The notes under the pieces: generated by a model
Seen by the model: the letters and a program-made list of their open reading frames with translations, nothing else
What the model was told of the DNA's origin: nothing
Database searches by the model: none
Program-made: the position numbers and the translations under genes
Shown here: one piece after another, positions 13,252 through 37,998 of the stretch
Numbering within the stretch: the stretch's first letter is position 1
How the letters are laid out: every line of letters starts with the position of its first letter
Source of the DNA: Nesterenkonia sp. F
GTDB taxonomy: Bacteria > Actinomycetota > Actinomycetes > Actinomycetales > Micrococcaceae
Assembly: GCF_000220985.1 (NCBI RefSeq)
Contig: NZ_AFRW01000004.1
Coordinates: 1-43,287, forward strand
DNA length: 43,287 nt
Direction: 5' to 3'

Positions 13252-13342
13252 TCTATTCTCCTGTGTCAGTCATGACATGTCGCAGGCGTGGTGGCGTCGC
13301 GGCATGGGATGGTGCGGGGTCTGGTGCGGACGCAGCGCCGGT

Positions 13343-14359: not shown

Positions 14360-14420
14360 ATCGTCACCTCCGTGTGGAGCGTCCATGGGTCATGAGGCGC
14401 CACAGGGAGGCTTCCCCTGC

Positions 14421-17852: not shown

Positions 17853-17956
17853 CTGCAGAAATTCTCTCCGGATTCCTCGCACAACGGGGTTGCACCGGCC
17901 CCAGAGTGGGATGCACGGCGAAGAAGCCGCCGGTCACCGATTCGAAGGAGAACACC

Positions 17957-19342
<1,386 letters not shown>

Positions 19343-19404
19343 TCCCCGCCCTCGGTCCTCTCGACCCCACCTCGACCCCGCTCTGCTGATCGAAGGAGAT
19401 CATC

Positions 19405-21113: not shown

Positions 21114-21119
21114 TAGAAT
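21114..21119 (+). promoter_or_regulatory. -10 box of leaderless ramB promoter
   Basis: TAGAAT, 7 nt, then the ATG at 21127. An ATG at 21118 overlaps this box and is therefore unlikely to be the start. Confidence 0.6.
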
Positions 21120-21126
21120 GGCCGCC

Positions 21127-22611
21127 ATGGACACCCGGTCCGAGACTGCGCCCGGCGCGCCCGCCGAGGGTGACGAGGAGCTCGACCTCGTCGCCCTCGG
21201 CCGGCGTGTGCGACACCTGCGGAAGCAGGCGCGGATGACTCTCGACGACGTCGCCGAGCGGCTGGACACCGCCCCCAGCCAGCTCTCGCTGCTGGAGAAC
21301 GGCCGCCGCGAGCCGAAGCTCAGCCAGCTCACCCAGCTGGCCGCCACGCTCGGGGTGAGCCTCGACGATCTGCTGGGCGCCGAGCCGCCGTCGCGCCGTG
21401 CCGCGCTGGAGATCGAGCTGGAGAAGGCTCAGCGCGGTCCGCTCTACTCCGCGCTCGGGCTGCCGACGGCGCGGGTGAGCCCGCGGCTGCCGCTGGACGT
21501 GCTCGAGTCGCTGGTCGCCCTGCAGCGCGAGCTGTGGCGACGCATGGAGGAGCAGGCGGCCACGCCGGAGGAGGCTCGCCGGGCGAACACCGAGCTGCGC
21601 GGCGAGATGCGTGCGCGGAACAACCACTACCCGGAGATCGAGGCGGAGGCGCAGGGACTGCTGGACGCCGTCGGGCACGGCGACGGCCCGCTGTCCCACC
21701 ACGTCGTCGCCGACATCGCCGACCATCTGGGCTACACGGTCCGCTTCGTCTCCTCGCTGCCGCATTCGACCCGCTCGGTCACCGATCAGCGGAACCGCAT
21801 CGTCTACCTGGCGCAGTCCCGCGGCGAGGGGCAGGATGCGCGCTCGGTGCTGCTCCAGGCGCTGGGCCACCAGGTCCTCGGCCACGCCGAGCCGCAGGAC
21901 TATTCGGAGTTCCTCCGCCAGCGGGTGGCGACGAACTACTTCGCCGCGGCGCTGCTGATGCCCGAGCGCACCGCCGCCCCCTTCCTGCGCGAGGCCAAGT
22001 CTCGGCGCGAGCTGGCGATCGAGGATCTGCGCGACGCCTATGCGGTCTCCTACGAATCGGCCGCCCATCGGTTCACCAATCTGGCCACCGAGCATCTGGG
22101 CATCACCTGTCACTTCCAGAAGGTCCATGAGTCCGGGATCATCCACAAGGTCTACGAGAACGACGGCGTGAACTTCCCCGCCGACCACTCCGGGGCGATC
22201 GAGGGGCAGACGGTCTGCCGCTGGTGGACCTCGCGGACGGTCTTCGACGCCGAGGACAAGTTCCGCTCGTTCAACCAGTTCACCGACACCGCCGTCGGCA
22301 CCTTCTGGTGCACCGCGCGGACCGAGGGCCATTCGTCGGGGCAGTACTCGCTGAGCATCGGCGTGCCCTTCGAACACGCCCGCTGGTTCCGCGGCGGCGA
22401 CACCTCCGAGCGCACTCGCTCGCGATGCCCGGACGATCCGAGCTGCTGTCGACGCCCGCCCACCGAGCTCTCCGCGGTCTGGGAGGGGCGGGCCTGGCCG
22501 GCGGCCCGGGCGAACACCCACCTGCTGGCCGCCATGCCGCAGGGCGCCTTCCCGGGCGTCGACACCACCGAGGTCTACGAGTTCCTGGAGCGCCACCGGC
22601 CGGAGGAGTGA
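21127..22611 (+). CDS. ramB: RamB-like XRE/ScfR family transcriptional regulator of acetate metabolism
   Basis: 494 residues. An N-terminal XRE helix-turn-helix (RVRHLRKQARMTLDDVAERLDTAPSQLSLLENGRREP, about 20-60) is followed by a central helical region and an ImmA/IrrE-like (DUF955) domain. The C-terminal DUF2083/ScfR-type domain has several Cys (VCRWW, WCTARTEG, RCPDDPSCC). Length and domain order match RamB of corynebacteria and mycobacteria, which controls aceA/aceB and other acetate genes. The metallopeptidase motif is degenerate (GHQVLGH instead of HExGH), so it probably senses rather than cuts. Lying directly behind aceA-aceB, it is the obvious local regulator. The symbol is assigned by homology pattern and context. 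Confidence 0.88.
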   Translation: MDTRSETAPGAPAEGDEELDLVALGRRVRHLRKQARMTLDDVAERLDTAPSQLSLLENGRREPKLSQLTQLAATLGVSLDDLLGAEPPSRRAALEIELEKAQRGPLYSALGLPTARVSPRLPLDVLESLVALQRELWRRMEEQAATPEEARRANTELRGEMRARNNHYPEIEAEAQGLLDAVGHGDGPLSHHVVADIADHLGYTVRFVSSLPHSTRSVTDQRNRIVYLAQSRGEGQDARSVLLQALGHQVLGHAEPQDYSEFLRQRVATNYFAAALLMPERTAAPFLREAKSRRELAIEDLRDAYAVSYESAAHRFTNLATEHLGITCHFQKVHESGIIHKVYENDGVNFPADHSGAIEGQTVCRWWTSRTVFDAEDKFRSFNQFTDTAVGTFWCTARTEGHSSGQYSLSIGVPFEHARWFRGGDTSERTRSRCPDDPSCCRRPPTELSAVWEGRAWPAARANTHLLAAMPQGAFPGVDTTEVYEFLERHRPEE

Positions 22612-23113: not shown

Positions 23114-24340
23114 GTGACTCAGGACATATCTGATCCTGTCGTCAGCGTGCGCGACGCGTACAAAGTGTTCGGGCGTCGCCCCGAACGCGGCGTCGAGCGC
23201 CTGAAGGCCGGCGAGACGCGGGACGACCTGCGTGAGGACGGCATCACCGCCGCCGTCATCGATGCCTCCTTCGACGTCTCCGACTCGGAGATCTTCGTCG
23301 TCATGGGACTCTCCGGCTCCGGAAAGTCCACGCTGATCCGCATGGTCAACGGGCTGCTCGAGCCCACCGCCGGCTCGGTGAAGATCGCCGGCGAGGACAT
23401 CGCCCGCATGGGAGCGGCCGACCTGCGGAAGGTCCGTCGGGAGAAGGTCTCGATGGTCTTCCAGAACTTCGCGCTGCTGCCGCACCGCACCGTCGGCCAG
23501 AACGCCGCCTACGCCCTGGAGGTCCAGGGCGTGAACCGCTCCGAGCGCGAGCAGCGGGCCGAGGAGGCCCTGCGCATGGTCGGCCTGGACGGCTGGGGCG
23601 GCCAGCGCCCGGACCAGCTCTCCGGCGGCATGCGTCAGCGCGTCGGCCTGGCCCGCGCGCTGGCCGCCGGCAGCGACGTGATGCTCATGGACGAGGCCTT
23701 CAGCGCGCTCGACCCGCTGATCCGTCGGGAGATGCAGGACCAGCTCATCGAGCTGCAGCACCAGCTGGGCAAGACCGTCCTGTTCATCACCCACGACCTC
23801 AACGAGGCCATGCGCCTGGGCGACCACATCGCGATGATGCGCGACGGGCGCATCGTGCAGATCGGCACCTCCGAGCAGATCCTCAACGACCCGGCCACCG
23901 ACTACGTCGCCCAGTTCGTCCAGGACGTCGACCGCACCCGCGTGCTCTCCGCGGAGAGCATCATGGAGCCGCCGGCGGTCACGCTCGGCGCCGAGCAGGG
24001 CCCGCGCAGCGCCCACCGGCTGATGCGCGAGCGGCAGACGACCTCGCTGATGGTCGTCGCCCACGGCCGTCGACTGGTCGGCCTGGTCACCGAGACCGAC
24101 GTCGCCGAGGCGGTGCGCAGCGGCACGCAGAGCCTGGACGGGATCATCCGTCCGGTGCCGGCCGTCGCGGCCGAGACCCCGCTGGTCGACCTGATGACCG
24201 CAGCGGCCGAGTCGCCGATGGCGCTCGCCGTCGTGGACGACGAGCAGCGGCTGCAGGGCGTCATCCCCCGGGTGACGCTGCTCAACGCCCTCGCCGACCC
24301 GACGTCGACGACCACCGGATCCATGGAGGTGATCGGATGA
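23114..24340 (+). CDS. proV: Glycine betaine/L-proline ABC transporter ATP-binding protein
   Basis: 408 residues, typical of ProV/OpuAA ATPases that carry a C-terminal CBS module. It shows Walker A GLSGSGKST (65-73), Q-loop VFQNFALLPHRTV, signature LSGGMRQRV, Walker B VMLMDEAFSALD and the switch His in FITHDLNEA, followed by two CBS repeats from about residue 275. CBS domains in this family sense ionic strength or c-di-AMP. The N-terminus has the usual ProV insert (ERLKAGETRDDLRED) before Walker A. GTG start with an AAGGA site. Overlaps the permease gene by 4 bp. Confidence 0.95.
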   Translation: MTQDISDPVVSVRDAYKVFGRRPERGVERLKAGETRDDLREDGITAAVIDASFDVSDSEIFVVMGLSGSGKSTLIRMVNGLLEPTAGSVKIAGEDIARMGAADLRKVRREKVSMVFQNFALLPHRTVGQNAAYALEVQGVNRSEREQRAEEALRMVGLDGWGGQRPDQLSGGMRQRVGLARALAAGSDVMLMDEAFSALDPLIRREMQDQLIELQHQLGKTVLFITHDLNEAMRLGDHIAMMRDGRIVQIGTSEQILNDPATDYVAQFVQDVDRTRVLSAESIMEPPAVTLGAEQGPRSAHRLMRERQTTSLMVVAHGRRLVGLVTETDVAEAVRSGTQSLDGIIRPVPAVAAETPLVDLMTAAAESPMALAVVDDEQRLQGVIPRVTLLNALADPTSTTTGSMEVIG

Positions 24341-25263
24341 TCCGCGCAGCTGCGGAGGCCGACGGCTCGCGGGTGATCCCGCGTGTGCCGGTCGGCGAGT
24401 GGATCGACACCGGCTTCGACTGGCTGAAGGACACCTTCGAGGTGTTCTTCGACTTCGTCAGCACCTTCATCACAAGCGTGGGTGACGGGTTCTTGGCCGT
24501 GCTGACGTCCTTCGACGCGCTCGTGCTCCTGGTCGTCTTCGCGCTGATCGGCTGGGCATTGAAGAGCTGGAAGCTCGGAGTGCTCAGCGCGGTGCTGATG
24601 GCGTTCATCATCAGCGTCGACATGTGGCAGGAGGCGATGGACACGTTCGTGATGGTCGTGATCGCCGCCGCGATCGCGCTGATCATCGGGATTCCCGTGG
24701 GTATTCTGGCCGCTCGGTCCGAGAAGGTCAGCAACACGATCCGTCCGGTCCTGGATCTGATGCAGACCATGCCGCCCTTCGTCTGGCTGGTGCCCGTCGT
24801 CGCGCTGTTCAGCGTCGGCTTCGCCCCCGGCGTGGTGGCCACGCTGATCTTCTGCCTGCCCCCGGGCGTGCGCTTCACCGAGCTCGGCATCCGCCAGGTG
24901 GACGCCGAAGTCGTCGAGGCCGGCCACGCCTTCGGGAGCACGCCGGGCCAGATCCTGCGCCGCATCCAGATCCCGCTGGCCATGCCGACCATCATGGCCG
25001 GCGTCAATCAGGTCATCATGCTGGCGCTCTCCATGGCCGTCATCGCCGGGCTCGTCGGCGCCGGCGGGCTCGGCGGCGAAGTCTCCAAGGCGATGAGCAC
25101 GATCGACATCGCCCTCGGCTTCGAAGCAGGGCTCTCCGTGGTGGCCCTGGCCATCTACCTGGACCGGGTGACCGCGGCCATCGGCAATCGACCGGCCGGC
25201 GGCGGGCGGCTCAGCCGGCTGCTGCAGCGGCGCCGGGACGCGAAGAACGCCGCAGCCGCCTGA
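24337..25263 (+). CDS. proW: Glycine betaine/L-proline ABC transporter permease
   Basis: 308 residues. Hydrophobic helices start near residue 50 (LVLLVVFALIGWALKSWKLG), and the binding-protein-dependent transport signature appears as EAGHAFGSTPGQILRRIQIPLAMPTIMAG, with the EAA-x3-G-like loop that contacts the ATPase. PFVWLVPVVALFSVGFAPGVVA and LVGAGGLGGEV are characteristic of ProW/OpuAB. It forms the membrane channel for compatible-solute uptake. Start overlaps the ATPase stop; the binding-protein gene follows after 66 bp that contain a ten-C run. Confidence 0.95.
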   Translation: MIRAAAEADGSRVIPRVPVGEWIDTGFDWLKDTFEVFFDFVSTFITSVGDGFLAVLTSFDALVLLVVFALIGWALKSWKLGVLSAVLMAFIISVDMWQEAMDTFVMVVIAAAIALIIGIPVGILAARSEKVSNTIRPVLDLMQTMPPFVWLVPVVALFSVGFAPGVVATLIFCLPPGVRFTELGIRQVDAEVVEAGHAFGSTPGQILRRIQIPLAMPTIMAGVNQVIMLALSMAVIAGLVGAGGLGGEVSKAMSTIDIALGFEAGLSVVALAIYLDRVTAAIGNRPAGGGRLSRLLQRRRDAKNAAAA

Positions 25264-25269
25264 GTCGAG

Positions 25270-25279
25270 CCCCCCCCCC
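25270..25279. repeat. Ten-base C homopolymer between permease and binding-protein genes
   Basis: A run of 10 C lies 7-16 bp after the permease stop, about 50 bp before the binding-protein start. An equal C10 run occurs at 40344-40353 ahead of gabT. It is outside any coding sequence. Confidence 0.9.
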
Positions 25280-25329
25280 ATAGACCACCCTTCGACCCCT
25301 CGCATCACTCGAAGAAAGAGGTAAGGAAA

Positions 25330-26235
25330 ATGAAGACAGGGAAGATCACGAAGTTCGTCGGCCTGACCGCGGCCGCCGCATTGGCGCTGTCCGCCTGCTC
25401 GGATTCCGGAGACTCCGGAGACTCCGAGGACTCGGGCGACGGCGACGGCGGCACCGTCACGCTGGGCATCCTCCCCTCGTGGACCGATGGGCTGAGCATG
25501 GCCCACCTGTGGAAGGTGATCCTGGAGGACGAGGGCTACACCGTCGAGATCGAGGAGATGTCCGAGGCCGGCCCGCTGTACACGGCCGTCGCCGAGGGCG
25601 ACTACGACGTGTACCCCTCGGCCTGGCCGCAGGTCACCCACGCTGACTACATGGAGGAGTACGGCGACGACCTCGAGGACCTGGGCGCGTACTACGAGGG
25701 CGCCGTCCTCACCATGGCCGTGCCGGAGTACACCGAGGTGGACTCCATCGCCGAGCTGAATGACAACGCCGATCTCTTCGACGGCCAGATCACCGGCATC
25801 GAGCCGGGGGCGGGGCTGACCGGTGTCATCGACGACAGTGCCATCCCGGAGTACAACCTCGGGGACAACTATGAGCACGTCACGTCCTCGACCACCGCGA
25901 TGCTCACCGAGCTCGAGGAGGCCACGGAGAACGAGGAGGACATCCTGGTGGCTCTGTGGCGTCCGTTCTGGGCCAACGCCGAGTACCCGGTGAAGGACCT
26001 GGAGGACCCGAAGGGCGCCATGGGCGAGCCGGAGACGCTGAACGCGATCGCCAACGCCGAGTTCTCCTCGGAGTTCCCGGACGTCGCGGAGTGGATGGGC
26101 AACCTGACGCTGGACGACGAGCAGTACGGCGAGCTGGAGGACCTGGTGGTCAACCAGCACGAGGACGACCCGGCCGCCGGCGCCGAGGAGTTCGTGGAGA
26201 ACAACCAGGACCTGATCGACTCCGTCACGGAGTGA
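25330..26235 (+). CDS. Glycine betaine ABC transporter substrate-binding lipoprotein (OpuAC-like)
   Basis: 301 residues. Signal peptide with lipobox LSAC (Cys about residue 23), a Ser/Asp/Gly-rich linker of about 20 residues, then the OpuAC-type domain beginning TVTLGILPSWTDGLSMAHLW. Trp-rich positions (SWTDG, SAWPQVTH, LWRPFWANAEY) are suited to the aromatic cage that binds quaternary amines. The protein is strikingly acidic, fitting a salt-tolerant lifestyle (inference). Ribosome site GAGGTAAGGA before the ATG. Last gene of the transporter operon, followed by a strong hairpin. Substrate assigned from family and context only; related proteins bind betaine, proline or carnitine. Confidence 0.93.
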   Translation: MKTGKITKFVGLTAAAALALSACSDSGDSGDSEDSGDGDGGTVTLGILPSWTDGLSMAHLWKVILEDEGYTVEIEEMSEAGPLYTAVAEGDYDVYPSAWPQVTHADYMEEYGDDLEDLGAYYEGAVLTMAVPEYTEVDSIAELNDNADLFDGQITGIEPGAGLTGVIDDSAIPEYNLGDNYEHVTSSTTAMLTELEEATENEEDILVALWRPFWANAEYPVKDLEDPKGAMGEPETLNAIANAEFSSEFPDVAEWMGNLTLDDEQYGELEDLVVNQHEDDPAAGAEEFVENNQDLIDSVTE

Positions 26236-26403: not shown

Positions 26404-27708
26404 TCAGTCGGTGCGCAGCCGGCGCGGCACGCCCTGCTTGACCCCGTGGCGCCCGTGGAGGATCCAGTAGAGCCCGATGGTGGCGGCGACGAGCACGGCG
26501 CAGGCGGCATACATCAGGCGGTAGCCGCCCAGCTCGAGCAGCGGGCCCAGGATCATCGGCGAGAGGCCGAAGCCGGAGTCGAGCAGGATGAAGAACGTGG
26601 AGATGCCGATGCTGGTGCGCGTGGGCGACAGCATCGCGGCGATGGTCGCCTGGAAGGCCGGCAGCAGCGCGCCGAAGCCCAGCCCGGCGAGCACCCCGGA
26701 GAGCAGCATCACGCCCTGGTTCGGAGACCAGGCCAGCAGGCCCAGGGCGACCGCGTAGAGCACCAGCGTCGGGTAGACGACGGTGTTGTCGCCGAAGCGG
26801 TCCTGGATCCTCCCGGCGATCAGCCGGGTGACCATCACGGCGGCGGCGTAGATGAGGAAGAACAGCGAGGCGGCGTCGACCATCCCCTCGCTGCGGGCGA
26901 AGCCGTTGAGGAAGGTCATCACCGAGGCGAAGCCGAAGCCGAGCATCATCGCGATCGTCGCCAGGGGGATGGCCCGCGGCTCGATGATGTCGCCCGGCCG
27001 CAGACGCAGCCGGTCCTTCCACCGGTCCGGCACATGCGGCGGGGCGGGCAGGCGGATGAACAGCGCGGCGAGCAGCCCCAGCACCGAGATCGCCGAGGTG
27101 GCCAGGAACATCGCCCAGAAGTCGAAGAGCTCGGTCAGCTGCAGGGTGAGCATCGGTCCCACTGCCGGCGGCAGGGCCACGGCGAGCATGTAGTAGCCCG
27201 CGCCCTCGCCGCGGCGGCTGGCCGGGATGAGCGCGAAGACCGCCGCGTTCAGCGCCGTCTGGCCGAAGCCGAAGGAGACGCCGTGGACCATCCGCAGCGC
27301 GATCAGCGCCGGGTAGGAGTCCACCCAGAGATAGGCGACGCCGGCCAGCACGTAGATCACCAGCCCGGCGATCACCGTGCGGCGCCGGCCCAGGAAGTCG
27401 ACGTATTTGCCGGCGGCGAAGCGCGAGATCAGCGCGCCGATGACGAAGGCCGAGGCCGCGAAGCCCGCGGCCGTCTGGTCGGCGGCGAACTCCTCGACGG
27501 CGAAGACCGCCATGCCGGTGACCAGCATGTAGAAGACCAGGGCCAGGACGACGTTGATGATGATGGCCAGCAGGAAGTCGCGGGTGAAGAGCTTCTCGCG
27601 GCCGACCGGGGGCTCCTCGCGGCGGTCCTCGCGAGCAGCGGCGGAGGCGGCGTCGACGGCGGGCTGCTGCGGTCCGGTCTGCGGGGTCTGCCTCTCATCG
27701 TCCATCAC
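26404..27708 (-). CDS. MFS transporter (arabinose-efflux/drug-type permease)
   Basis: 434 residues with about twelve hydrophobic helices after a ~40-residue hydrophilic N-terminus. The loop motif GKYVDFLGRRRTVIAG between helices 2 and 3 is the MFS signature, and HGVSFGFGQTALNAAVFALIPASRRGEGAGYY matches the helix 4-5 region of the MFS_1/AraJ-like group. Substrate unknown. Starts are GTG 27708 or ATG 27705; no Shine-Dalgarno is visible, but TATGCT at 27727-27732 gives a short leader. Divergent from pxpA across a 118-bp region that contains the GntR-type palindrome, so it may belong to the same regulon and import or export the operon's substrate. Confidence 0.88.
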   Translation of the reverse strand: MMDDERQTPQTGPQQPAVDAASAAAREDRREEPPVGREKLFTRDFLLAIIINVVLALVFYMLVTGMAVFAVEEFAADQTAAGFAASAFVIGALISRFAAGKYVDFLGRRRTVIAGLVIYVLAGVAYLWVDSYPALIALRMVHGVSFGFGQTALNAAVFALIPASRRGEGAGYYMLAVALPPAVGPMLTLQLTELFDFWAMFLATSAISVLGLLAALFIRLPAPPHVPDRWKDRLRLRPGDIIEPRAIPLATIAMMLGFGFASVMTFLNGFARSEGMVDAASLFFLIYAAAVMVTRLIAGRIQDRFGDNTVVYPTLVLYAVALGLLAWSPNQGVMLLSGVLAGLGFGALLPAFQATIAAMLSPTRTSIGISTFFILLDSGFGLSPMILGPLLELGGYRLMYAACAVLVAATIGLYWILHGRHGVKQGVPRRLRTD

Positions 27709-27763
27709 CAGGGGATTGTTTCATGAAGCATACGATCGGCGGACGCCGTGGCCTCCGAACACA

Positions 27764-27797
27764 GATTGTTGAACAATCCTGTGATCTGCGGCATGCT
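27764..27797 (+). promoter_or_regulatory. pxpA promoter with FadR/GntR-type operator over the -35
   Basis: GATTGTTGAACAATC (27764-27778) is a perfect 15-bp palindrome that contains TTGT-nnn-ACAA, the FadR-subfamily GntR site form. A -35 TTGAAC (27769-27774), 17-bp spacer and -10 CATGCT (27792-27797) can be read for pxpA, so the palindrome covers the -35. A TATGCT box for the divergent MFS gene (27732-27727) lies about 32 bp away. Confidence 0.7.
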
Positions 27798-27826: not shown

Positions 27827-28588
27827 GTGGCACAGATCGACCTGAATTCCGACGTCGGGGAGTCGTTCGGCCGGTGGCGCCTGGGGGACGACGCCGCGAT
27901 CCTGCAGACGGTCACCAGTGCGAACATCGCCTGCGGCTTCCACGCCGGCGACCCGATGACCATCGCCGAGACCGCCCGCACCGCCGTCGAGCAGGACGTC
28001 GCGATCGGCGCCCACATCGCCTACCGCGACCTCGCCGGCTTCGGCCGTCGTCACCTGGAGTGTTCCTATGAGGAGCTCGCCGCCGACGTGCGCTACCAGC
28101 TCGGCGGACTGGCCTCCATGGCCGCCGCCTCCGGCGCCCGGATCCGCTATGTGAAGCCGCACGGGGCGCTGTACCACGCGATGATCGCCCATGAGACCCA
28201 CGCGCGGGCTGTCATCGACACCATCGCCGCCGTCGACGACACGCTGCCCGTGCTGCTGCTGCCGGGCTCGCGCGGGCTGGAGCTCGCCGCCGAGGCCGGG
28301 CTGCGCGGCGTGGCCGAGGCCTTCGCCGACCGGAACTACGAGCCCGACGGCACCCTGGTCTCCCGCCGCGAGCCGGATGCCGTGCTGCACGACGCCGACC
28401 AGGTGGTGGCGAACATGGTCCGGCTGGCCACCGCCGGCGAGATCGTCGCCCGCGACGGCACGGTGCTGCCCGTGGACGCCGAGAGCATATGCGTCCACGG
28501 CGACACCGACGGCGCGGTGCAGATGGCCGCGGCCGTGCGCTCCGGGCTGCAGGAGGCCGGCGTCGAGATCCGCAGCTTCGTGGCATGA
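27827..28588 (+). CDS. pxpA: 5-oxoprolinase subunit PxpA (LamB/YcsF family)
   Basis: 253 residues, the standard length. Family motifs are present throughout: DLNSDVGESFGRW at the N-terminus, ANIACGFHAGDP, IGAHIAYRDLAGFGRR, IRYVKPHGALYH, EAFADRNYEPDGTLVSRREPDA and ICVHGDTDGAV. PxpA works with PxpB and PxpC in the ATP-dependent opening of 5-oxoproline (pyroglutamate) to glutamate, a damaged-metabolite salvage reaction known from Escherichia coli and Bacillus subtilis. GTG start with GAGGAG 7 nt upstream. First gene of the operon; its stop overlaps the next start (ATGA). Confidence 0.95.
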   Translation: MAQIDLNSDVGESFGRWRLGDDAAILQTVTSANIACGFHAGDPMTIAETARTAVEQDVAIGAHIAYRDLAGFGRRHLECSYEELAADVRYQLGGLASMAAASGARIRYVKPHGALYHAMIAHETHARAVIDTIAAVDDTLPVLLLPGSRGLELAAEAGLRGVAEAFADRNYEPDGTLVSRREPDAVLHDADQVVANMVRLATAGEIVARDGTVLPVDAESICVHGDTDGAVQMAAAVRSGLQEAGVEIRSFVA

Positions 28589-30354
28589 GCGGGGCGGGGC
28601 GGACTGTCGAGTCCCTGGGCGCGACGGCCGGGGCGGCGCCGATCGGCGTCCGCGCCGCCGGCGACCGGGCGCTGCTGGCCGAGTACGCCGACCTCGCCGA
28701 CGTGCTGGCCCACCATCAGCACCTGCGCGCCCACCCGCTGGACGGCCAGCGCGAGGCGGTGGCCGCCGCACGGACGATCCTGCTGTGCTTCGACGCGCCG
28801 TCGTCGGCCGCCGCCGCGCGCGAGCGGCTCGCCCGGCTGCGCGTGGCCGGCTTCTCCGCCGCCGAGGCCCGCGTGGTCGAGCTCGACGTCGTCTACGACG
28901 GCGAGGATCTCGACGAGGTCGCCGCCGCCGTGTCGATGAGCCGCGAGGCGCTGATCGCCTGGCATGCCGGCCAGGAGTGGACCGGGGCTTTCGGGGGCTT
29001 CGCGCCCGGCTTCACCTACTGCACTCCGGCCGACGCCGCCCACGCGCTGCAGGTGCCGCGGAGGGAGACGCCGCGCACGGCGCTGCCGGCCGGCTCAGTG
29101 GCTCTGGCCGCCGAGTTCTCCGCGGTCTACCCGCGCGTCTCGCCGGGCGGCTGGCAGCTGATCGGCCGCACCGCTGCGGCGATGTGGGATCTCGACCGCG
29201 CCGCGGCGGGGGAGTCGCCGGCGCTGGTGCGCCCCGGCGACGTCGTCCGCCATCGGCCGGTGCGTGAGCTGGCCACGCTGCGGCCGGGTTCGGCGGCCGA
29301 CGAGGCCGTCCAGGGACGTCCGGACGCCGCGACGGAGCCGGCGGCGCTCGAGGTGCTCGACCCCGGTCTGCAGACGCTGGTCCAGGACCTCGGCCGCGAA
29401 GGCCTCAGCGACCTCGGGGTCTCGCGCGCCGGCGTCGCCGACGAGGCCGCGATGCGCCAGGCGAACCGGCTGGTGGGCAACACCGCCGACGCCGCCGTGC
29501 TGGAGGCCCTCCAGGGCGGGCTGCGCCTGCAGGCGCGGCGGACGGTGGTGCTCGCGGTGACCGGCGCCGAGATCGGCCTGCGCGTCGACGACGGCGACGG
29601 CGGCGACGGCGGCACGCGCGCGCCGGCGCTGCGCGCCCCCTTCGCGGTGACCGCCGGTGAGACGCTGACCCTCTCCGCTCCGCGCCGCGGGCTGCGCGGC
29701 GTCGTCGCCGTCCGCGGCGGATTCGCCGCCGAGCCGGTGCTGGGCAGCGTCTCGGCCGACACCATGTCCGGGCTGGGGCCGGCACCGCTGCAGGCCGGCG
29801 ACCGGCTCGCGCTCGCCGACGGTGCCCTCACCCCGGTCGGCGCGGAGGAGCCGAGCACGCTGCCGGAGCCCGACGAGGACGGCGCGATCACGCTGCGGAT
29901 GATCTCCGGCCCGCGGGACGACTGGTTCGACGCCGCGGAGCTGGAGCGGCTGCAGCGCCAGGTCTGGCGGGTCTCCACGCAGGCCGACCGGATCGGCGTG
30001 CGGCTGGAGCTGGGGGAGGAGGCCGGCGCCGCCGACGGCGAGGCCGAAGCCTCTGCCGCCGCCTCTGCCGGCGACGACGCGCCGCGTCCGCTGCGCCGGG
30101 CCCGCACCGGCGAGCTGCCCAGCGAGGGCGTGCCGCGCGGGGCGCTGCAGGTGCCGCCGTCGGGCCTGCCGGTGCTCTTCCTCAACGACCATCCGGTCAC
30201 CGGCGGCTACCCGGTGATCGGCGTCGTCCTCGCCGCGGACCTCACGGCCGCCGCGCAGCTTGCTCCCGGCCAGCACCTGCGGCTGCGTGCCGTCGACGGC
30301 GTCGACGTACCGGCCGCGCGCCCTTCCGACCCCACGACCCAGGACTCCCCATGA
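28585..30354 (+). CDS. Fused 5-oxoprolinase subunits PxpB-PxpC (KipI-KipA, biotin-dependent carboxyltransferase-like)
   Basis: 589 residues. The N-terminal ~230 residues are the KipI/AHS1 (PxpB) domain: GDRALLAEYADL near residue 27, FGGFAPGFTYC near 140, PRRETPRTALPAGSVALAAEFSAVYP and SPGGWQLIGRT near 190. The rest is KipA/AHS2 (PxpC): LEVLDPGLQTLVQDLGREGLSDLGVSRAGVAD, ANRLVGNTADAAVLE, LRGVVAVRGGF, VSTQADRIGVRLE and LPVLFLNDHPVTGGYPVIG. In many bacteria these are separate genes. Both domains are homologous to the carboxyltransferase part of urea carboxylase, relevant because the next gene encodes a biotin carboxylase-BCCP. An Ala/Glu-rich insertion interrupts PxpC around residue 480. Four-base overlaps on both sides show tight translational coupling. 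Confidence 0.92.
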   Translation: MSGAGRTVESLGATAGAAPIGVRAAGDRALLAEYADLADVLAHHQHLRAHPLDGQREAVAAARTILLCFDAPSSAAAARERLARLRVAGFSAAEARVVELDVVYDGEDLDEVAAAVSMSREALIAWHAGQEWTGAFGGFAPGFTYCTPADAAHALQVPRRETPRTALPAGSVALAAEFSAVYPRVSPGGWQLIGRTAAAMWDLDRAAAGESPALVRPGDVVRHRPVRELATLRPGSAADEAVQGRPDAATEPAALEVLDPGLQTLVQDLGREGLSDLGVSRAGVADEAAMRQANRLVGNTADAAVLEALQGGLRLQARRTVVLAVTGAEIGLRVDDGDGGDGGTRAPALRAPFAVTAGETLTLSAPRRGLRGVVAVRGGFAAEPVLGSVSADTMSGLGPAPLQAGDRLALADGALTPVGAEEPSTLPEPDEDGAITLRMISGPRDDWFDAAELERLQRQVWRVSTQADRIGVRLELGEEAGAADGEAEASAAASAGDDAPRPLRRARTGELPSEGVPRGALQVPPSGLPVLFLNDHPVTGGYPVIGVVLAADLTAAAQLAPGQHLRLRAVDGVDVPAARPSDPTTQDSP

Positions 30355-32129
30355 GACGACTCCTCATCGCCAACCGCGGAGAGATCGCCGTGCGCATCAT
30401 CCGCGCCGCCGCCGAGCAGGGTATGGAGACGGTCGCCGTCCATGCCGACCAGGACGCCGACTCGCTCGCCGTGGCCCTGGCCGACGTCGCCGTGCCGCTG
30501 GCCGGGACCACGGCGGCCGAGACCTACCTGGATCAGCAGAAGATCCTGGAGGCCGCGCAGTCCACCGGCGCCGACGCCGTCCACCCCGGCTACGGCTTCC
30601 TCTCCGAGAACGCCGACTTCGCCCGTGCGGTCATCGACGCCGGCCTGACCTGGATCGGCCCCTCGCCGGAGACGATCGAGACGCTCGGGGACAAGGTCGC
30701 CGCCCGCGAGCTCGCCGCCTCCGTGGACGCCCCGCTGGCCCCGGGCACCGACGGGCCGGTCGACGGCTCGGAGGCGGTGCGGGACTTCGCCGCCGAGCAC
30801 GGGCTGCCGGTGGTCATCAAGGCCGCCCACGGCGGCGGCGGACGCGGCATGCGGGTCGTCCGCGACCTCGACGCCGTCGAGGAGGCCTGGGCCTCGGCCG
30901 TGCGCGAGGCCGAGGGCGCCTTCGGCCGCGGCGAATGCTTCGTCGAGCGCTTCCTCGACCGCCCGCGGCACGTCGAGGCGCAGGTGATCGCCGATGCGCA
31001 CGGGAACGTCGTCGTCGTGGGGCTGCGCGACTGCTCGCTGCAGCGCCGCGGGCAGAAGCTCGTCGAGGAGGCCCCGGCGCCCTTCCTGCCCGCCGGAGTG
31101 GAGGAGCGGATCCGCGCCTCGGCGGCCGCGATCTGCTCGGCGGCCGGCTACGTCGGCGCCGGCACGGTGGAGTACCTGCTCAGCGACGTCGACGATGCCG
31201 GTTCGGAGCCGCTGGTCAGCTTCCTGGAGGTCAACACTCGGCTGCAGGTCGAGCACCCGGTGACCGAGGAGACCTCCGGGGTGGACCTGGTCGTCGAGCA
31301 GCTGCGCGTCGCCGCGGGCGAGCCGCTGAGCCTCCCCGAGGATCCGGCGCCGCGCGGGCACGCGATCGAGTTCCGGCTCAACGCCGAGGACCCGGCGCTG
31401 GGCTTCCTGCCCACTCCCGGCCTCGTCGAACGTTTCGACCCGCCGACCGGGCCCGGGGTGCGCCTCGACGCCGGCGTGCGCGGCGGCGACGAGATCCCGG
31501 CGGCCTTCGACTCGATGATCGGCAAGCTGATCATCACCGGCCCGGACCGCGAGACCGCGCTGCGCCGGGCGCGGCTGGCGCTGGCCGAGATGCGCATCGA
31601 GGGCGTGCCCAGCGTGTTGCCCTTCCACCGGGCGGTGCTCGAGGACCCGGCCTTCCGCGCCGCCGACGGCGCGCGCAGCTTCGGCGTGCACACCCGCTGG
31701 ATCGAGGAGGAGTTCGACGCCGCGCTGGGCGAGTCCGAGCATCTGGCCGCCGCACTGCGCCACCGCGAGCAGCAGATGCTGCGCACCACCGTGGAGCTCG
31801 ACGGCCGGACGGTGGGGCTCGGGCTGCCCGCCGCGCTGCTGCGCCGACTGGGCGGGGGCGATCCGGCGGGCGGAGCGGGAGGAGCCGACGCCGACGTCGA
31901 CCGGTCGGGTGCCGAGGTCGGTGCGGTGACCACTCCGGTCGGCGGCTCGCTGGTGCGCTGGGCCGCCGAGGACGGCACCGTCGTCGCGGCCGGCGACGCG
32001 CTCGCCGTCGTCGAGGCGATGAAGATGGAGCACACGGTCACTGCGCCGCAGGCCGGCACGCTGGAGCACGCTGAGCTGGAGCCCGGCGAGATGCTGGAGG
32101 TCGGGCAGCGGCTCGGCACGATCCGCTGA
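30351..32129 (+). CDS. Biotin carboxylase fused to biotin carboxyl carrier protein (AccC-AccB type)
   Basis: 592 residues. Biotin carboxylase N-domain RRLLIANRGEIAVRIIRAA, HPGYGFLSENADFA; ATP-grasp loop IKAAHGGGGRGMRVV; ECFVERFLDRPRHVEAQ; catalytic region FLEVNTRLQVEHPVTEE; C-domain HAIEFRLNAEDP. A short linker leads to a biotinyl domain with EAMKMEH (biotinylated Lys about 558) near the C-terminus. It carboxylates its own biotin with ATP and bicarbonate and needs a carboxyltransferase partner. The only candidate in the operon is the KipI-KipA fusion encoded immediately upstream with a 4-bp overlap. Alternatively it could serve an acyl-CoA carboxylase encoded elsewhere, but operon position argues against that. 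Confidence 0.94.
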   Translation: MRRLLIANRGEIAVRIIRAAAEQGMETVAVHADQDADSLAVALADVAVPLAGTTAAETYLDQQKILEAAQSTGADAVHPGYGFLSENADFARAVIDAGLTWIGPSPETIETLGDKVAARELAASVDAPLAPGTDGPVDGSEAVRDFAAEHGLPVVIKAAHGGGGRGMRVVRDLDAVEEAWASAVREAEGAFGRGECFVERFLDRPRHVEAQVIADAHGNVVVVGLRDCSLQRRGQKLVEEAPAPFLPAGVEERIRASAAAICSAAGYVGAGTVEYLLSDVDDAGSEPLVSFLEVNTRLQVEHPVTEETSGVDLVVEQLRVAAGEPLSLPEDPAPRGHAIEFRLNAEDPALGFLPTPGLVERFDPPTGPGVRLDAGVRGGDEIPAAFDSMIGKLIITGPDRETALRRARLALAEMRIEGVPSVLPFHRAVLEDPAFRAADGARSFGVHTRWIEEEFDAALGESEHLAAALRHREQQMLRTTVELDGRTVGLGLPAALLRRLGGGDPAGGAGGADADVDRSGAEVGAVTTPVGGSLVRWAAEDGTVVAAGDALAVVEAMKMEHTVTAPQAGTLEHAELEPGEMLEVGQRLGTIR

Positions 32130-32194: not shown

Positions 32195-32200
32195 TAGTGT
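32195..32200 (+). promoter_or_regulatory. -10 box of leaderless promoter for the GntR gene
   Basis: TAGTGT, 7 nt, then the ATG at 32208. It allows the regulator to be expressed independently of the pxp operon. No TTGTnnnACAA site was seen here. Confidence 0.5.
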
Positions 32201-32207
32201 GGAGCCC

Positions 32208-32870
32208 ATGGATCGCACCGAGGACGCCGAACCGCGCGGCGAGACGGCCCAGCGCGCCGAACGCGCCGCGGCGGTGCTGCGCGCGCGGATCGCCGCCGGG
32301 GAGATCCCTCCGGGCGCGAAGCTGCCCGAGGTCCAGCTCTGTGACGAGCTCGAGGTCTCGCGGCACACGCTGCGCAGCGCGCTGCAGACTCTGGGCGCCG
32401 AAGGGCTGGCCGAGCGGCGGCCGAACGTCGGGGTCTTCGTCCACGCGCCCACGCTGGAGGATCTCGCTGAGATCTACCGGGTCCGTCGGGTCGTGGAGAT
32501 CGGCGCCGTGCGTCAGGCGGCCTTCGACGCCCCGGCGTTGGAGGAGCTGGCCGCCCTGGTCGAACATGCGCAGCAGCGCGCCGCGGCCGACGACGTCGCC
32601 GCCGTCGCCGAGGCCAACCAGCGCTTCCACCGCCGGCTGGTCGCCCAGGCCGGCTCGGAGCAGCTGAGCACCTTCATGGAGCGGATCCTGGCGCGGATGC
32701 GCCTGGTCTTCCACGTGATGCGCGGCGAGCCGACCTTCCACGTGGAGTTCGCCGCCGGCAACGCCGAGCTGGTGCGGCTGCTGCGCGCCGACGACCGCGA
32801 CGGCGCCGAACGGCATATGGAGTCCTACTTCGACCACGCCGAGCAGCTGCTGGGCGCCCGCCTGTCCTGA
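32208..32870 (+). CDS. GntR-family regulator, FadR/FCD subfamily
   Basis: 220 residues. Winged HTH at about 15-75 (LRARIAAGEIPPGAKLPEVQLCDELEVSRHTLRSALQTLGAEGLAERR...GVFV), followed by an all-helical FCD domain with VRRVVEIGAVRQAA, ANQRFHRRLVAQAG and DRDGAERHMESYFDHAEQLL; the Asn/His positions resemble the FCD metal/ligand site. It follows the biotin carboxylase gene by 78 bp. FCD-type GntR proteins recognise TnGTnnnACnA sites, and such palindromes lie before pxpA and before the NRAMP-like gene; this protein is the likely reader. It parallels KipR-type regulators of the Bacillus operon in role only. The GTG at 32199 overlaps the -10 box and is rejected. Confidence 0.9.
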   Translation: MDRTEDAEPRGETAQRAERAAAVLRARIAAGEIPPGAKLPEVQLCDELEVSRHTLRSALQTLGAEGLAERRPNVGVFVHAPTLEDLAEIYRVRRVVEIGAVRQAAFDAPALEELAALVEHAQQRAAADDVAAVAEANQRFHRRLVAQAGSEQLSTFMERILARMRLVFHVMRGEPTFHVEFAAGNAELVRLLRADDRDGAERHMESYFDHAEQLLGARLS

Positions 32871-34293: not shown

Positions 34294-34740
34294 GTGACCA
34301 CGACTTTCACCACCCGACGGCCCGAGGAGCTCACCGTCCGCGAGCTGCACGATGTGCTGAAGCTGCGCGTCGACGTCTTCGTCGTCGAGCAGGAATGCCC
34401 GTATGCGGAGATCGACGGCCGGGACCTGCTCGATGACACCGTCCAGCTCCTCGCCCATGAGGACGGGGAGCTGGTCGCCGCCCAGCGGGTGCTGGGCGTG
34501 CACGACGCCGAGCCGTCCATCGGCCGCGTCGTCACCCGCGCCGACGCCCGCGGCCGTGGGCTGGCCGGCGCGCTGCTCGAGCGGGGGATCGAACTCTGCC
34601 GCCCTGAGGCGACGATCCGTCTGGGCGCGCAGGCGCATCTGGAGCAGTGGTACGGACGCTTCGGATTCGTCCGCGCCGGCGAGGACTACCTCGAGGACGG
34701 CATCCCGCACTGCCCGATGCTCCGGACGCCGCGCGGCTGA
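34294..34740 (+). CDS. GNAT-family N-acetyltransferase (ElaA-like)
   Basis: 148 residues. ElaA-type features: ELTVRELHDVLKLRVDVFVVEQECPYAEIDGRDLLDDTVQLLA at the N-terminus, then GRVVTRADARGRGLAGALLERGIE (acetyl-CoA pyrophosphate loop R-G-x-G-x-A) and LGAQAHLEQWYGRFGFVRAGEDYLEDGIPH at the C-terminus. It probably acetylates a small amine or protein; no substrate is known for most of this family. The GTG start is supported by the leaderless -10 box. The DUF1989 gene follows after 44 bp and may be co-transcribed. Confidence 0.9.
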   Translation: MTTTFTTRRPEELTVRELHDVLKLRVDVFVVEQECPYAEIDGRDLLDDTVQLLAHEDGELVAAQRVLGVHDAEPSIGRVVTRADARGRGLAGALLERGIELCRPEATIRLGAQAHLEQWYGRFGFVRAGEDYLEDGIPHCPMLRTPRG

Positions 34741-34784
34741 CGGCCGGAGCCGCTCCGCGCCGGCACGAGACGACAGGAGGCCCC

Positions 34785-35690
34785 ATGACTGCCGACGACA
34801 CCGGCCCCGGCGCCGGCACGAGCCCCGCGCGCGGCGGCGACGACGCCTCCGCCGGCCGGATCTACACCCGGCGCGCGGCCTACCAGTCGCCGCCCGGCGG
34901 GGCGCTCGACGTCGACCGCGGCCTCTATGCCGCCGTCGCCGCCGCGGACCGGCGGCTGGTGGAGGAGTTCGAGATCCCGATCCGCTCCGGGCGGGCCTGG
35001 CAGGTGCCGGCCGGGCATATCGTGCGGATCCACCAGACCGACGGTCCGCAGGTCGGCGACCTGAACCTGTGGAACCTGCACGACCCGCGGGAGCGGTTCT
35101 GGGCGGCGCGGACCCGGCAGCTGCAGCGCTCCTCGATGACCGTCCACGACCGCTTCTGGTCCACGCTGCCGGCGCTGCGGCCGCTGGCGACGATGATCGC
35201 CGACACGCTCGCCGACCACCCGGACGCCGCGGTGATCCACGATCTGCTGGGCACCCGCTGCGATCCGTATGTGAACCGGATGCTCTCCGGCGAGGACTTC
35301 GACCGGCACTGCCATTCGAATCTCACCCGGGCGGTGCTGCCCCACGGGCTGACCGAGCTCGACGTCCACGACGTGCTCAACGTCTTCCAGATGGCCGGGC
35401 TCAACCACCGCCACGAGTACTTCATGGATGCCTGCCCGGCGAGGCCGGACGACTACGTGGAGATCTTCGCCGAAGTCGACCTGCTCATGGCGCTGTCCAC
35501 CTGTCCGGGCGGGGACCTCTCGGTGCACATGTGGGGCCCCGAGGCGGCCTCGACCGAGGAGCAGCTGGCCCACTGCCACCCGTTGGGCGTGCAGGTCTTC
35601 GCCGTCGACGACGCCGCCCTGGAGCGTCGGCGGCCGCCGGAGAAGGCCGCCTATCGCGGCGCCGACGGGCTGCACGGCCTCGGGGTGTGA
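34785..35690 (+). CDS. DUF1989 protein (urea carboxylase-associated / carboxyguanidine deiminase-like)
   Basis: 301 residues. The core fits DUF1989: GRAWQVPAGHIVRIHQTDGPQVGDLNLWN, ERFWAARTRQL, VIHDLLGTRCDPY, DRHCHSNLTRAVLPHGL, DVLNVFQMAGL, DYVEIFAEVDLLMALSTCPGGDLS. Cys and His in these blocks are suitable metal ligands. Members sit beside urea carboxylase or guanidine carboxylase genes, and some form carboxyguanidine deiminase. Here the nearest biotin carboxylase is the BC-BCCP protein about 3 kb upstream. The ATG at 34785 follows AGGAGG (34775-34780). The reaction in this organism is unknown; amide/amidine hydrolysis is an inference from relatives. Confidence 0.85.
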   Translation: MTADDTGPGAGTSPARGGDDASAGRIYTRRAAYQSPPGGALDVDRGLYAAVAAADRRLVEEFEIPIRSGRAWQVPAGHIVRIHQTDGPQVGDLNLWNLHDPRERFWAARTRQLQRSSMTVHDRFWSTLPALRPLATMIADTLADHPDAAVIHDLLGTRCDPYVNRMLSGEDFDRHCHSNLTRAVLPHGLTELDVHDVLNVFQMAGLNHRHEYFMDACPARPDDYVEIFAEVDLLMALSTCPGGDLSVHMWGPEAASTEEQLAHCHPLGVQVFAVDDAALERRRPPEKAAYRGADGLHGLGV

Positions 35691-35717: not shown

Positions 35718-36509
35718 TCAGGGCACCTGGAGCTCGGCCTCCGGCAGGTCGGTGATCAGCATGTGTCCCGGCGCGTGGCTGATCGCCAGCTCGGGGCGCG
35801 ACTCCATCACCGCCGCCTGCGGGGTCACGCCGCAGGCCCAGAACACCGGCAGCCAGCCGTCGGGCACGTCGACGGCGTCGCCGAAGTCCGGGGCCGCGAG
35901 GTCTCCGATGCCCAGTGCGGCGGGGTCGCCCACATGCACCGGCGCCCCGTGGACTCCGGGGAAGCGGGAGGAGATGCGGACCGCGTCGGCCACCTGCTCG
36001 GCCGGAATCGGCCGCATCGAGACCACCAGCGGTCCGGAGAGCATTCCGGCCGGGGCGCAGCGGCGCGTGGTGCGGAACATCGGCACGTTGATGCCCAGCT
36101 GCTGGTGTCGCAGCGGAATGCCGGCCCGGCGCAGCGGCGTCTCGAAGGTGAAGCTGCAACCCAGCAGGAAGGTCACCAGATCCTCGCGCCAGTGCTCGAC
36201 GACGTCGTCCGGCTCGGCGACCAGGGCGCCGTCGCGGTAGACCCGGTAGGCGGGGACGTCAGTGCGGATGTCGCCGCCGGCCAGCAGCTCCGAGCTCAGC
36301 TGCCCGGCCTCGAGGACTCCGAGGACGGGGCAGGCCTTCGGATTCCGCTGGGCGAAGAGCAGCATGTCGAAGGCCATGTCGCGGGGGAGGGCCAGCACGT
36401 TGGCCTGCGCGGCCCCCGGCACCCACCCGCTGGTGGGCGTGCGCAGTCCTGCGCGGAACCGGCCCCGCGCCTGCGCGGGGGAGAGTCGGTCATCGGTCGG
36501 CGTCGTCAT
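35718..36509 (-). CDS. D-glutamate cyclase-like protein (DUF1445, YcsI family; often called putative hydro-lyase)
   Basis: 263 residues. Family blocks include [31 protein letters not shown] near residue 35, [22 protein letters not shown] near 135, [40 protein letters not shown] near 190, and [10 protein letters not shown]...[11 protein letters not shown] at the C-terminus. The domain occurs in the mammalian D-glutamate cyclase, which converts D-glutamate to 5-oxo-D-proline; bacterial members are largely untested. In Bacillus subtilis the homologue ycsI lies in the ycsF-ycsG-ycsI-kipI-kipA operon, the same gene set as here. A GAGGAGGGAG site precedes the ATG. It probably shares a transcript with the NRAMP-like gene upstream, unless the hairpin between them terminates. 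Confidence 0.88.
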
Positions 36510-36615: not shown

Positions 36616-37866
36616 TCAGCCCGCCTGCCAGAGCTCGGCCAGCCCGCCCAGCGAGCTCGCGCCCATGTAGAGCGTCAGCGCCCAGGCCAGCACCCCGATG
36701 ATCAGCAGCCAGGCGGGGTGCCGTCGGCCCTGCATCAGGTCGCGGCGACGCCAGGCGGCCCAGAGGATCACCGTGAAGCCCAGCGGCAGCACGGCGCCGT
36801 TGACGGCTCCGGCCATGATCAGCAGCGTCTGCGGGGCCTGTCCGACGCTCAGGAAGATCGCGCCGGTGACCGCCAGGAAGCCGCCGGCCAACCAGTTGCG
36901 CGTGCGCTCGCCGGTGCGTGCGGTGACCAGGAAGCTCACCGAGGTGAAGGTCGCCCCGAGGATCGAGGTGATCGCCGCGACCCAGAAGACCAGGCCGAAG
37001 GTCCGCAGCCCGATCTCCCCCAGGGCGGCGCCGAAGGCGTCGGCGGCGACGTCGTCCTCGGCCAGCGAGGCCCCGGTGACGACGACGCCGAGGATCGCCA
37101 GGAACAGCAGGAAGCGGATGATGCTGGCGACGATGATGCCCAGCACCGAGGTGCGCGTGATCGCGCCGATGTTCTCCGCGCCGGTGTTGCCCGAGGCGAT
37201 CAGCCGGTGGGCGCCGGCGTAGGTGATGTAGCCGCCGACGGTGCCGCCGACGAGGGTGGTGATCACGAAGAAGTCGACCTGCTCCGGCATCACGGTCTGA
37301 CGCATCGCCTCGCCGACCGGGGGAGCGGTGGTGACCGCCATGGTGATCATCAGCAGGATCAGCACCGCCCCGCAGGCGACCACCACACGGTCCAGGGCGA
37401 CGCCGGCCTTGCGGGAGAGGAAGATCAGCAGCGCCAGGACCACGGAGATCCCGCCGCCGATGCGGGCGTCGAGGCCGGTCAGCGCGTTGAGTCCCATTCC
37501 CGCACCGGCGATGTTGCCGACGTTGAACACGATGCCGCCGAAGAACACCAGGGCCGCGAGGGCCCAGCCGGCGCCGGGCAGCACCCGGTTGCCCAGCTGC
37601 TGGGCGTAGAGCCCGGAGAGGCCGAGCACGCGCCAGACGTTGAGCTGGACGGCGATGTCGACGAGCACCGAGATCAGGATGGCGAAGGCGAAGGCTGCGC
37701 CGAGCTGGTGGGTGAAGGTCGCGGTCTGGGTGATGAATCCCGGCCCGACGGCGCTGGTCGCCATCAGGAACATGGCGCCCAGCAGCGCGGTGCGGCGGCG
37801 TCGGGTGCGACGGCGGGTCGTCTCGGCGGGCGAGGCTGTCGGCGGGGTCGCGGCGGGGTCGGTCAC
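36616..37866 (-). CDS. NRAMP-like transporter (YcsG type)
   Basis: 416 residues with about eleven transmembrane helices after an Arg-rich N-terminus ([16 protein letters not shown]). It aligns by pattern with the NRAMP fold but lacks the metal-binding signatures: helix 1 has [14 protein letters not shown] in place of the D-P-G-N loop, and the helix 6 region reads [13 protein letters not shown] rather than M-P-H. It is therefore unlikely to carry Mn/Fe; it resembles the YcsG branch found with ycsF/kipI/kipA. Transport of a lactam or amino acid of this pathway is plausible but unproven. Start at the GTG 37866 behind GAGGGAG. Two TTGTnnnACAA palindromes lie 94-132 bp upstream. Confidence 0.87.
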
Positions 37867-37959
37867 AGATCTGCTCCCTCGGACGTGGTGCTGGTCGGCG
37901 GGCGATGATGCCGCCCGGATGTGACGTGGATCTATTCGGCGAATGCACCACACAGTAGC

Positions 37960-37974
37960 GGTTGTTCAACAATC
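37960..37974. promoter_or_regulatory. GntR/FadR-type operator, site 1, NRAMP-FAD monooxygenase divergent region
   Basis: GGTTGTTCAACAATC is the reverse complement of the pxpA operator with one mismatch in 15. It contains TTGTTCAACAA. On the minus strand TTGAAC is present as at pxpA, a possible -35 for the NRAMP-like gene, though no strong -10 follows. Confidence 0.7.
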
Positions 37975-37983
37975 GGGGCAATG

Positions 37984-37998
37984 GATTGTTGCACAAAA
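37984..37998. promoter_or_regulatory. GntR/FadR-type operator, site 2, NRAMP-FAD monooxygenase divergent region
   Basis: GATTGTTGCACAAAA carries perfect TTGT-nnn-ACAA arms and starts 24 bp (just over two helical turns) from the start of site 1, a spacing suited to cooperative binding on one face of the DNA. Confidence 0.6.

Follow-up and report, generated by a model that had tools for sequence, protein, structure and literature searches.

Within a 43,287-nucleotide stretch of Nesterenkonia sp. F DNA (contig NZ_AFRW01000004.1; hereafter the window), pxpA is followed by a gene for a PxpB-PxpC (KipI-KipA) fusion, PxpBC, and by a gene for a protein joining a biotin carboxylase (BC) to a biotin carboxyl carrier protein (BCCP). 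We propose that their products probably constitute a dedicated biotin-dependent 5-oxoprolinase. The operon and its domains, intact BC sites, a natural fusion, joint transfer, a 5-oxoproline-type operator and a homologous complex in the PDB carry this proposal. A functional link between BC-BCCP and PxpBC is very likely, and lactam carboxylation as the mechanism is put forward with moderate confidence. The coupling and the substrate are well supported; the chemistry we infer.

PxpABC is the most frequent bacterial 5-oxoprolinase, and its use of ATP has been assumed, not demonstrated (PMC13274462; cited papers are represented throughout by excerpts of their text). The PxpB/PxpC half of the enzyme resembles a carboxyltransferase lacking its carboxylase. 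In a clade with a BC within the operon, even fused to PxpBC, and with a 5-oxoproline-type operator in control, ATP use can be tested directly. Were the proposal correct, lactam opening would be a biotin-dependent reaction, there would be a reason for the complex in PDB entry 9yx5, and the Acinetobacter baumannii mum operon, currently assigned to urea metabolism, would deserve re-examination.

The three genes are tightly packed (Table 1). GAGGAGG precedes the GTG start of pxpA at 27827, and both junctions read ATGA, with 4-base-pair (bp) overlaps (28585-28588 and 30351-30354) that place each downstream start within the upstream stop. Open reading frames, Pfam matches and the two junctions thus bear out the layout given in a preliminary description of this DNA. 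The pxpA product matches LamB_YcsF at 319 bits and lies above its NCBIfam cut-off (NF003814, 343.6 bits vs 226). The fusion carries CT_C_D (172 bits) and CT_A_B (256 bits) in a single protein, and BC-BCCP contains Biotin_carb_N, CPSase_L_D2, Biotin_carb_C and Biotin_lipoyl. PxpA, the PxpB/PxpC folds, NRAMP-family and GntR neighbours and a PxpR operator are shared with the PxpABC systems of B. subtilis, C. glutamicum and E. coli, whereas the fusion of PxpB to PxpC and the presence of BC-BCCP in the operon set the window apart.

The arrangement recurs well beyond the window. We refer to loci with PxpA, PxpBC and BC-BCCP as in the window as type A, and to those with a separate BC before PxpB as type B. 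PF02626 is present in 57/61 genomes of the window's family, and 40 family loci from 33 genomes were mapped: 19 are type A (one, L044, with a degenerate BC), five are type B, one is a urea carboxylase and 15 are BC-less. A BC adjoins PxpC in 24 of these 40, as compared to ~0.3 expected under a rough random-placement model (~4 BC genes per 3.5 Mb), and the adjacency is therefore not chance. A further 80 named loci, a biased sample since the scan kept best matches, include 19 of type A in Arthrobacter, Nesterenkonia, Paeniglutamicibacter, Sinomonas, Cryobacterium, Frigoribacterium and Corynebacterium. These counts still include duplicates of one genome (L048/L096, which are identical, and the pairs L025/L100 and L029/L134, whose contigs are equal in length). 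The obligate co-occurrence of BC and KipI-KipA (KipIA) raised in the preliminary description does not hold: 80 of the 131 mapped loci, some on short contigs, have no BC adjoining PxpC. Co-presence at the genome level is uninformative, since any BC is found in 27 of the 29 PF02626-positive genomes of the phylum vs 112 of all 119. PxpB and PxpC are fused in 38/39 type A loci vs 17/78 BC-less loci in which both were found. Two KipIA clusters lie near one another, one with a BC and one without, in Nesterenkonia L108 and in G042 (L026, L027).

PxpB, PxpC, BC and BCCP are encoded by a single stop-free open frame in two congeneric species (G020, locus L047; G048, locus L176). An in-frame GTG stands at the BC start of L047, so a separate BC may also be made there. 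Among 638 plasmid records matching PxpBC, six loci were opened, all proteobacterial, and BC-BCCP adjoins PxpBC in every one. Trees with these plasmid rows were built from hand-chosen sequences (BC, 38 of 78 rows plus six plasmid rows; PxpC, 40 loci plus the window and six plasmid rows). The six proteobacterial PxpCs fall inside Actinomycetota with Frigoribacterium L113 (97/97), and the six BCs fall inside Actinomycetota with L113 and L028 (86/97). Because two separate trees place the two genes close to the same relative, they appear to have been transferred jointly to Proteobacteria. The recurrent operon, the natural fusion, the joint transfer and a solved complex of homologues together uphold the earlier suggestion that BC-BCCP and KipI-KipA belong together.

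These data also bear on an alternative that we consider unlikely, in which PxpABC is an ordinary phosphorylating 5-oxoprolinase and BC-BCCP is an AccA paralogue linked to it by the operon alone and partnered by the housekeeping AccD, for example to raise malonyl-CoA on 5-oxoproline carbon. The natural fusion is difficult to reconcile with this idea, as is joint transfer to Proteobacteria, which use AccABCD; KipIA-linked BCs without a single origin and the complex 9yx5, both described below, point the same way. Consistent with a paralogue, the window BC lies within the AccA clade and shares 57% identity with the AccA of the genome, the BC is lost or degenerate in some lineages, and PxpABC works in species for which the excerpts of PMC13274462 name no BC in the operon.

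Like other biotin-dependent carboxylases, the window BC has the BC catalytic residues and a biotinyl lysine. It is identical to E. coli AccC at 17/19 compared positions, including ten that we take to be catalytic (the position numbers and roles are likewise as we presume them). The two differences are Gly for H236 and Thr for I437, positions at which the genome's own AccA differs too (Asn and Thr). The biotin site of the BCCP domain reads AMKM. Among 45 type A and plasmid BCs, all ten catalytic residues are kept in 40 and AMKM in 39.

The ancestry of the BC was examined in a tree of 78 sequences, for which 31 of the 39 type A loci were given, with L136 dropped as short, along with 12 type B-labelled loci. 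Type A BCs and the housekeeping AccA of Actinomycetota form a 100/100 clade that includes the window BC, and the remaining KipIA-linked BCs fall into three other groups, each 100/100. The type B-labelled L187 has a divergent BC that is placed beside housekeeping AccA. A single clade of all KipIA-linked BCs (types A, B1, B2 and B3) was rejected (p-AU 8e-8), so a BC has probably joined KipIA more than once; a single clade of the three non-A groups was weakly rejected (p 0.035). Inside the AccA clade, the data neither demonstrate nor reject one pxp-linked subfamily that would include the proteobacterial members (p-AU 0.41).

The window BC shares its BC-BCCP architecture and clade with actinobacterial acyl-CoA carboxylases (AccA3-type alpha subunits), but it lacks an adjoining CoA-carboxyltransferase and the assembled genome has none to spare. 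The preliminary description had held that a BC among acyl-CoA carboxylase alpha subunits, with a CoA-carboxyltransferase partner elsewhere, would speak against its proposal. The BC does lie among AccA relatives; no spare CoA-carboxyltransferase was found in the 93% complete source genome, where the sole PF01039 gene adjoins another AccA. This sole enzyme may also serve the window's BC. Three BCs are present in the source genome, one of which the tree groups with pyruvate carboxylases, and the congener G042 (99% complete) likewise has three BCs and one CoA-carboxyltransferase. With no spare partner in either genome, a stand-alone acyl-CoA carboxylase was lowered as a candidate.

Structural data place homologues of the same parts together. 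Both halves of the proposed system matched 9yx5 in sequence searches. As judged from its title and chain names, 9yx5 is the M. smegmatis long chain acyl-CoA carboxylase complex with MSMEG_0435-MSMEG_0436 bound, and it contains an alpha3 (AccA3) chain; no paper on it was found in the open-access literature searched. It thus resembles the proposed assembly in having PxpB/PxpC homologues on an AccA-type complex, and differs in that its BC is the alpha3 subunit. No BC adjoins PxpC in the four mapped Mycobacterium loci (L143, L152, L161 and L172), and the alpha3 subunit would therefore be shared there. An AlphaFold2 model of PxpBC (mean pLDDT 78.9) matches TTHA0988, M. smegmatis MSMEG_0435/0436, E. 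coli YbgJK and K. lactis urea carboxylase.

The promoter of pxpA points to the substrate. C. glutamicum PxpR binds agattgttcaacaatct, change or deletion of which raises expression 6.5-fold, and the regulator binds 5-oxoproline (KD 726 nM) but not Glu, Gln, Pro or Asp (PMC13274462). A search with this published site, its centre base left free, found AGATTGTTGAACAATCC in the window, which has 16/17 bases of the C. glutamicum site when read on the other strand (one mismatch; shuffled sequence gives an expectation of 0). An initial, looser operator pattern had given 3 matches vs 2.5 expected, a chance level, and was replaced by a promoter palindrome and then by the published site. The core ATTGTTNAACAAT, at ≤1 mismatch and ≤260 bp 5' of PxpA, occurs in 31/39 type A, 7/61 BC-less (those of the 80 with a usable PxpA) and 0/11 type B loci. 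A gene-internal control at ≤2 mismatches gave 0/39, 0/61 and 0/11, respectively. The figure of 7/61 understates the BC-less loci, since eight of them (L118, L121, L127, L137, L138, L154, L163 and L168) carry the site before an NRAMP gene 5' of the cluster. The exact core is present in 4/6 plasmid loci; L228 has one-mismatch sites, and L226 has none at ≤2 mismatches. The pyroglutamyl-peptidase I gene pcp lies in a Comamonadaceae operon, one of the six plasmid loci; when sought in the other loci it was found in L224 only.

Given the PxpR operator at the pxpA promoter, 5-oxoproline is the likely substrate, and we hold this with good confidence. In C. glutamicum this operator is a usual companion rather than a defining feature of a 5-oxoprolinase. 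The preliminary description had left the choice between 5-oxoproline and another lactam or amide; the former is now favoured, and urea is disfavoured. It seems very unlikely that the complex carboxylates another operon-inducing lactam or amide, such as 5-oxo-D-proline from the linked D-glutamate cyclase. Homologues of that family's gene, detected by tblastn, do accompany 18/39 type A loci, but they also lie near BC-less clusters (17/80), and the PxpR ligand tests reported in the excerpts of PMC13274462 comprise 5-oxoproline and four amino acids, with no mention of the D form. A DUF969/DUF979 gene pair lies near pxp clusters in L224 (2672-5111, with pcp), L112, L117, L036, L046, L057, L124, L135, L146, L147 and L174, in some cases with PxpR-like sites close by, and is a candidate transporter of 5-oxoproline or pyroglutamyl peptides.

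Urea carboxylase and urea amidolyase share with the window a BC, a BCCP and a KipI/KipA-like carboxyltransferase, and two-gene relatives of the urea carboxylase carboxyltransferase were previously noted in bacteria and Thermococcales (PMC3199775). Urea carboxylase differs in being a single BC-carboxyltransferase-BCCP polypeptide, in having Lys for the window's Arg, and in its allophanate hydrolase partner. In the K. lactis enzyme, K1605 is the likely general base (PMC5770610). PxpB alignments, from which rows with stops or <150 amino acids were excluded (leaving 38/39 type A, 69/80 BC-less and 11/11 type B loci), have Arg at this position in the window, in 38/38 type A and in 68/69 BC-less sequences. 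Judged by this residue, the window PxpB is probably of the ordinary 5-oxoprolinase kind. If a carboxyl group is transferred, PxpBC therefore relies on a base other than the urea carboxylase one. The Lys-Tyr pair of urea carboxylase is found in 8/11 type B PxpBs, a tally that takes in the f23 group, whose PxpB carries Arg as in type A. Type B is thus probably a different and more urea-carboxylase-like enzyme. Eight type B KipIA clusters (L039, L045, L056, L059, L061, L181, L182 and L184) combine Lys-Tyr in KipI with no PxpR-like core 5' of PxpA; such Lys-Tyr clusters are probably a different carboxylase.

For the window itself, a split urea carboxylase, in which BC-BCCP and KipI-KipA carboxylate urea as proposed for A. 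baumannii MumC, is highly improbable. The KipIA fold is indeed that of the urea carboxylase carboxyltransferase, and a urea route would not be redundant, since a urease alpha subunit is absent in 3/3 genomes of the genus. However, the general-base Lys is replaced by Arg, the two proteins score 139 and 500 bits on TIGR02712 vs a cut-off of 1303.85, with no single-chain BC-carboxyltransferase-BCCP order, and the PxpR operator lies 5' of pxpA. Furthermore, the allophanate hydrolase cut-off (TIGR02713) is reached in 0/3 genus genomes, including the 93% complete source genome, which show weaker amidase matches only. On these four grounds, urea carboxylase identity was rejected.

The A. baumannii mum operon (mumTLUHC) comprises genes for an NRAMP protein, two proteins of no predicted function, a homologue of allophanate hydrolase and a BC, and was published as urea carboxylase plus allophanate hydrolase (PMC5050338). 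K. pneumoniae plasmid locus L228 has the order GntR-NRAMP-PxpA-hydro-lyase-PxpBC-BC. From this layout, and not from sequence, we infer that MumH corresponds to KipIA, and mumL and mumU to the PxpA and hydro-lyase genes; the operon may serve 5-oxoproline metabolism instead of urea metabolism. The genetics cut both ways: mumC (the BC) was required for urea as sole nitrogen source, whereas a deletion of mumH, the carboxyltransferase on the present reading, still used urea (PMC5050338). Such a result is at odds with a MumH-MumC urea carboxylase and is not simply explained by a 5-oxoprolinase either.

In the proposed reaction, BC would charge BCCP-bound biotin with CO2 from bicarbonate at the expense of ATP. 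PxpBC, with its urea carboxylase carboxyltransferase fold, would pass the carboxyl group on to the nitrogen of the 5-oxoproline lactam, and PxpA would hydrolyse the activated ring to N-carboxyglutamate, which would release CO2 to give glutamate. Since N-carboxyglutamate loses CO2, bicarbonate would be recycled and one ATP spent per ring. The use of carboxybiotin by PxpBC, nitrogen as the acceptor and the order of steps are all presumed in this scheme. The excerpts consulted do not describe biotin dependence for the known PxpABC enzyme, and no statement on it was found in the open-access literature searched, most subscription papers being outside that scope.

Several observations weigh against a dedicated biotin-dependent 5-oxoprolinase. 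PxpABC of B. subtilis and C. glutamicum supports 5-oxoproline use and, in the excerpts available, no BC is named in their operons (PMC13274462); PxpBC has been reported as ATP-hydrolysing (PMC8453981), and phosphorylation of 5-oxoproline by PxpBC is assumed in print (PMC13274462). The fusion misses both the PxpC cut-off (NF045499, 162.8 vs 500) and the PxpB equivalog cut-off (TIGR00370, 106.3 vs 145.55) and barely passes the TIGR00724 domain model (230.7 vs 230.2), so that NCBIfam would not file it as a PxpB/PxpC equivalog; our claim is that it would work like one. The AccA3 complex in 9yx5 also contains CoA-carboxyltransferases: two of its beta chains, which the sister entry 9t97 names D5 and D4, matched a CoA-carboxyltransferase query. 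On a quick PxpC tree, with types A and B both scored as BC-positive, the BC was gained or lost at least 12 times (rows with stops or <250 amino acids were excluded, as were L064, L088, L100, L134 and L183 by name). The Arg at the K1605 position, the absent urease and the mumC/mumH result noted above add to this list.

Degenerate BCs belong to the same side of the argument. In the set of 45 type A and plasmid BCs, five have changes at, or are truncated within, the ten catalytic residues, and AMKM is missing from six. The Frigoribacterium BCs of L113 (8972-10498) and L125 have no BCCP and carry N290G and R292A; that of L044 (8096-9316) is missing both BCCP and much of its ATP-grasp domain; in L106, R292W is accompanied by the absence of an in-frame AMKM, and L042 reads AMKT. 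The L136 BC is cut by the contig end. The homologues in L113, L125 and L044 are possibly pseudo-enzymes retained in the operon. Genomes with a degenerate BC may lean on housekeeping AccA, or the BC may be dispensable.

A broader and more tentative view, which we regard as doubtful as a joint claim, is that PxpABC 5-oxoprolinases generally are biotin-dependent lactam N-carboxylase/hydrolases with bicarbonate as a recycled cofactor, which borrow a housekeeping carboxylase wherever the BC is unlinked. The lender would be AccA3 in mycobacteria, as 9yx5 suggests, and perhaps AccBC elsewhere; the window would be a version with its own AccA-type BC-BCCP.

The neighbouring genes are listed in Table 1. 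A homologue of the GntR/FCD regulator occurs somewhere in 33/39 type A loci, and the NRAMP gene has homologues in 17/39 type A vs 11/80 BC-less loci.

Table 1. Coordinates of the operon, predicted operators and linked genes in the window.
Feature	Coordinates	Strand	Remarks
pxpA (LamB/YcsF)	27827..28588	+	GTG start, 253 aa; proposed ring-opening subunit
PxpB-PxpC (KipI-KipA) fusion	28585..30354	+	589 aa; PF02682 + PF02626; proposed carboxyltransferase
BC-BCCP protein	30351..32129	+	592 aa; AccA-family clade; proposed carboxybiotin-forming subunit
Biotin-attachment lysine codon (K558, EAMKME)	32022..32024	+	
PxpR-type operator AGATTGTTGAACAATCC (predicted)	27763..27779	+	divergent MFS/pxpA promoter region
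Two weaker PxpR-like sites	37959-37975 (core 1 mismatch), 37985-37997 (core 2 mismatches)	.	directly 5' of NRAMP GTG start
GntR/FCD regulator, candidate PxpR	32199..32870	+	PF00392 + PF07729; 3' of BC-BCCP gene
MFS transporter	26404..27708	-	divergent from pxpA, predicted operator between
D-glutamate cyclase / putative hydro-lyase family protein, linked gene	35718..36509	-	PF07286
NRAMP-family transporter (family of B. subtilis YcsG/MntG, A. baumannii MumT)	36616..37953	-	PF01566

The window also encodes a DUF1989 protein (34647-35690) with weak likeness to urea-amidolyase-associated proteins (46 bits vs a cut-off of 285). A homologue was present in 1/39 other type A loci (L063), and the protein was not counted as a system component. 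Elsewhere in the window are a glycine-betaine-type ABC transporter (23114-26235; an ATPase with CBS domains, a permease and an OpuAC substrate-binding protein), adjoining isocitrate lyase family and malate synthase genes (17906-20778) with an HTH/M78 regulator (21118-22608), and genes for cobalamin-independent methionine synthase and methylenetetrahydrofolate reductase (10861-14386).

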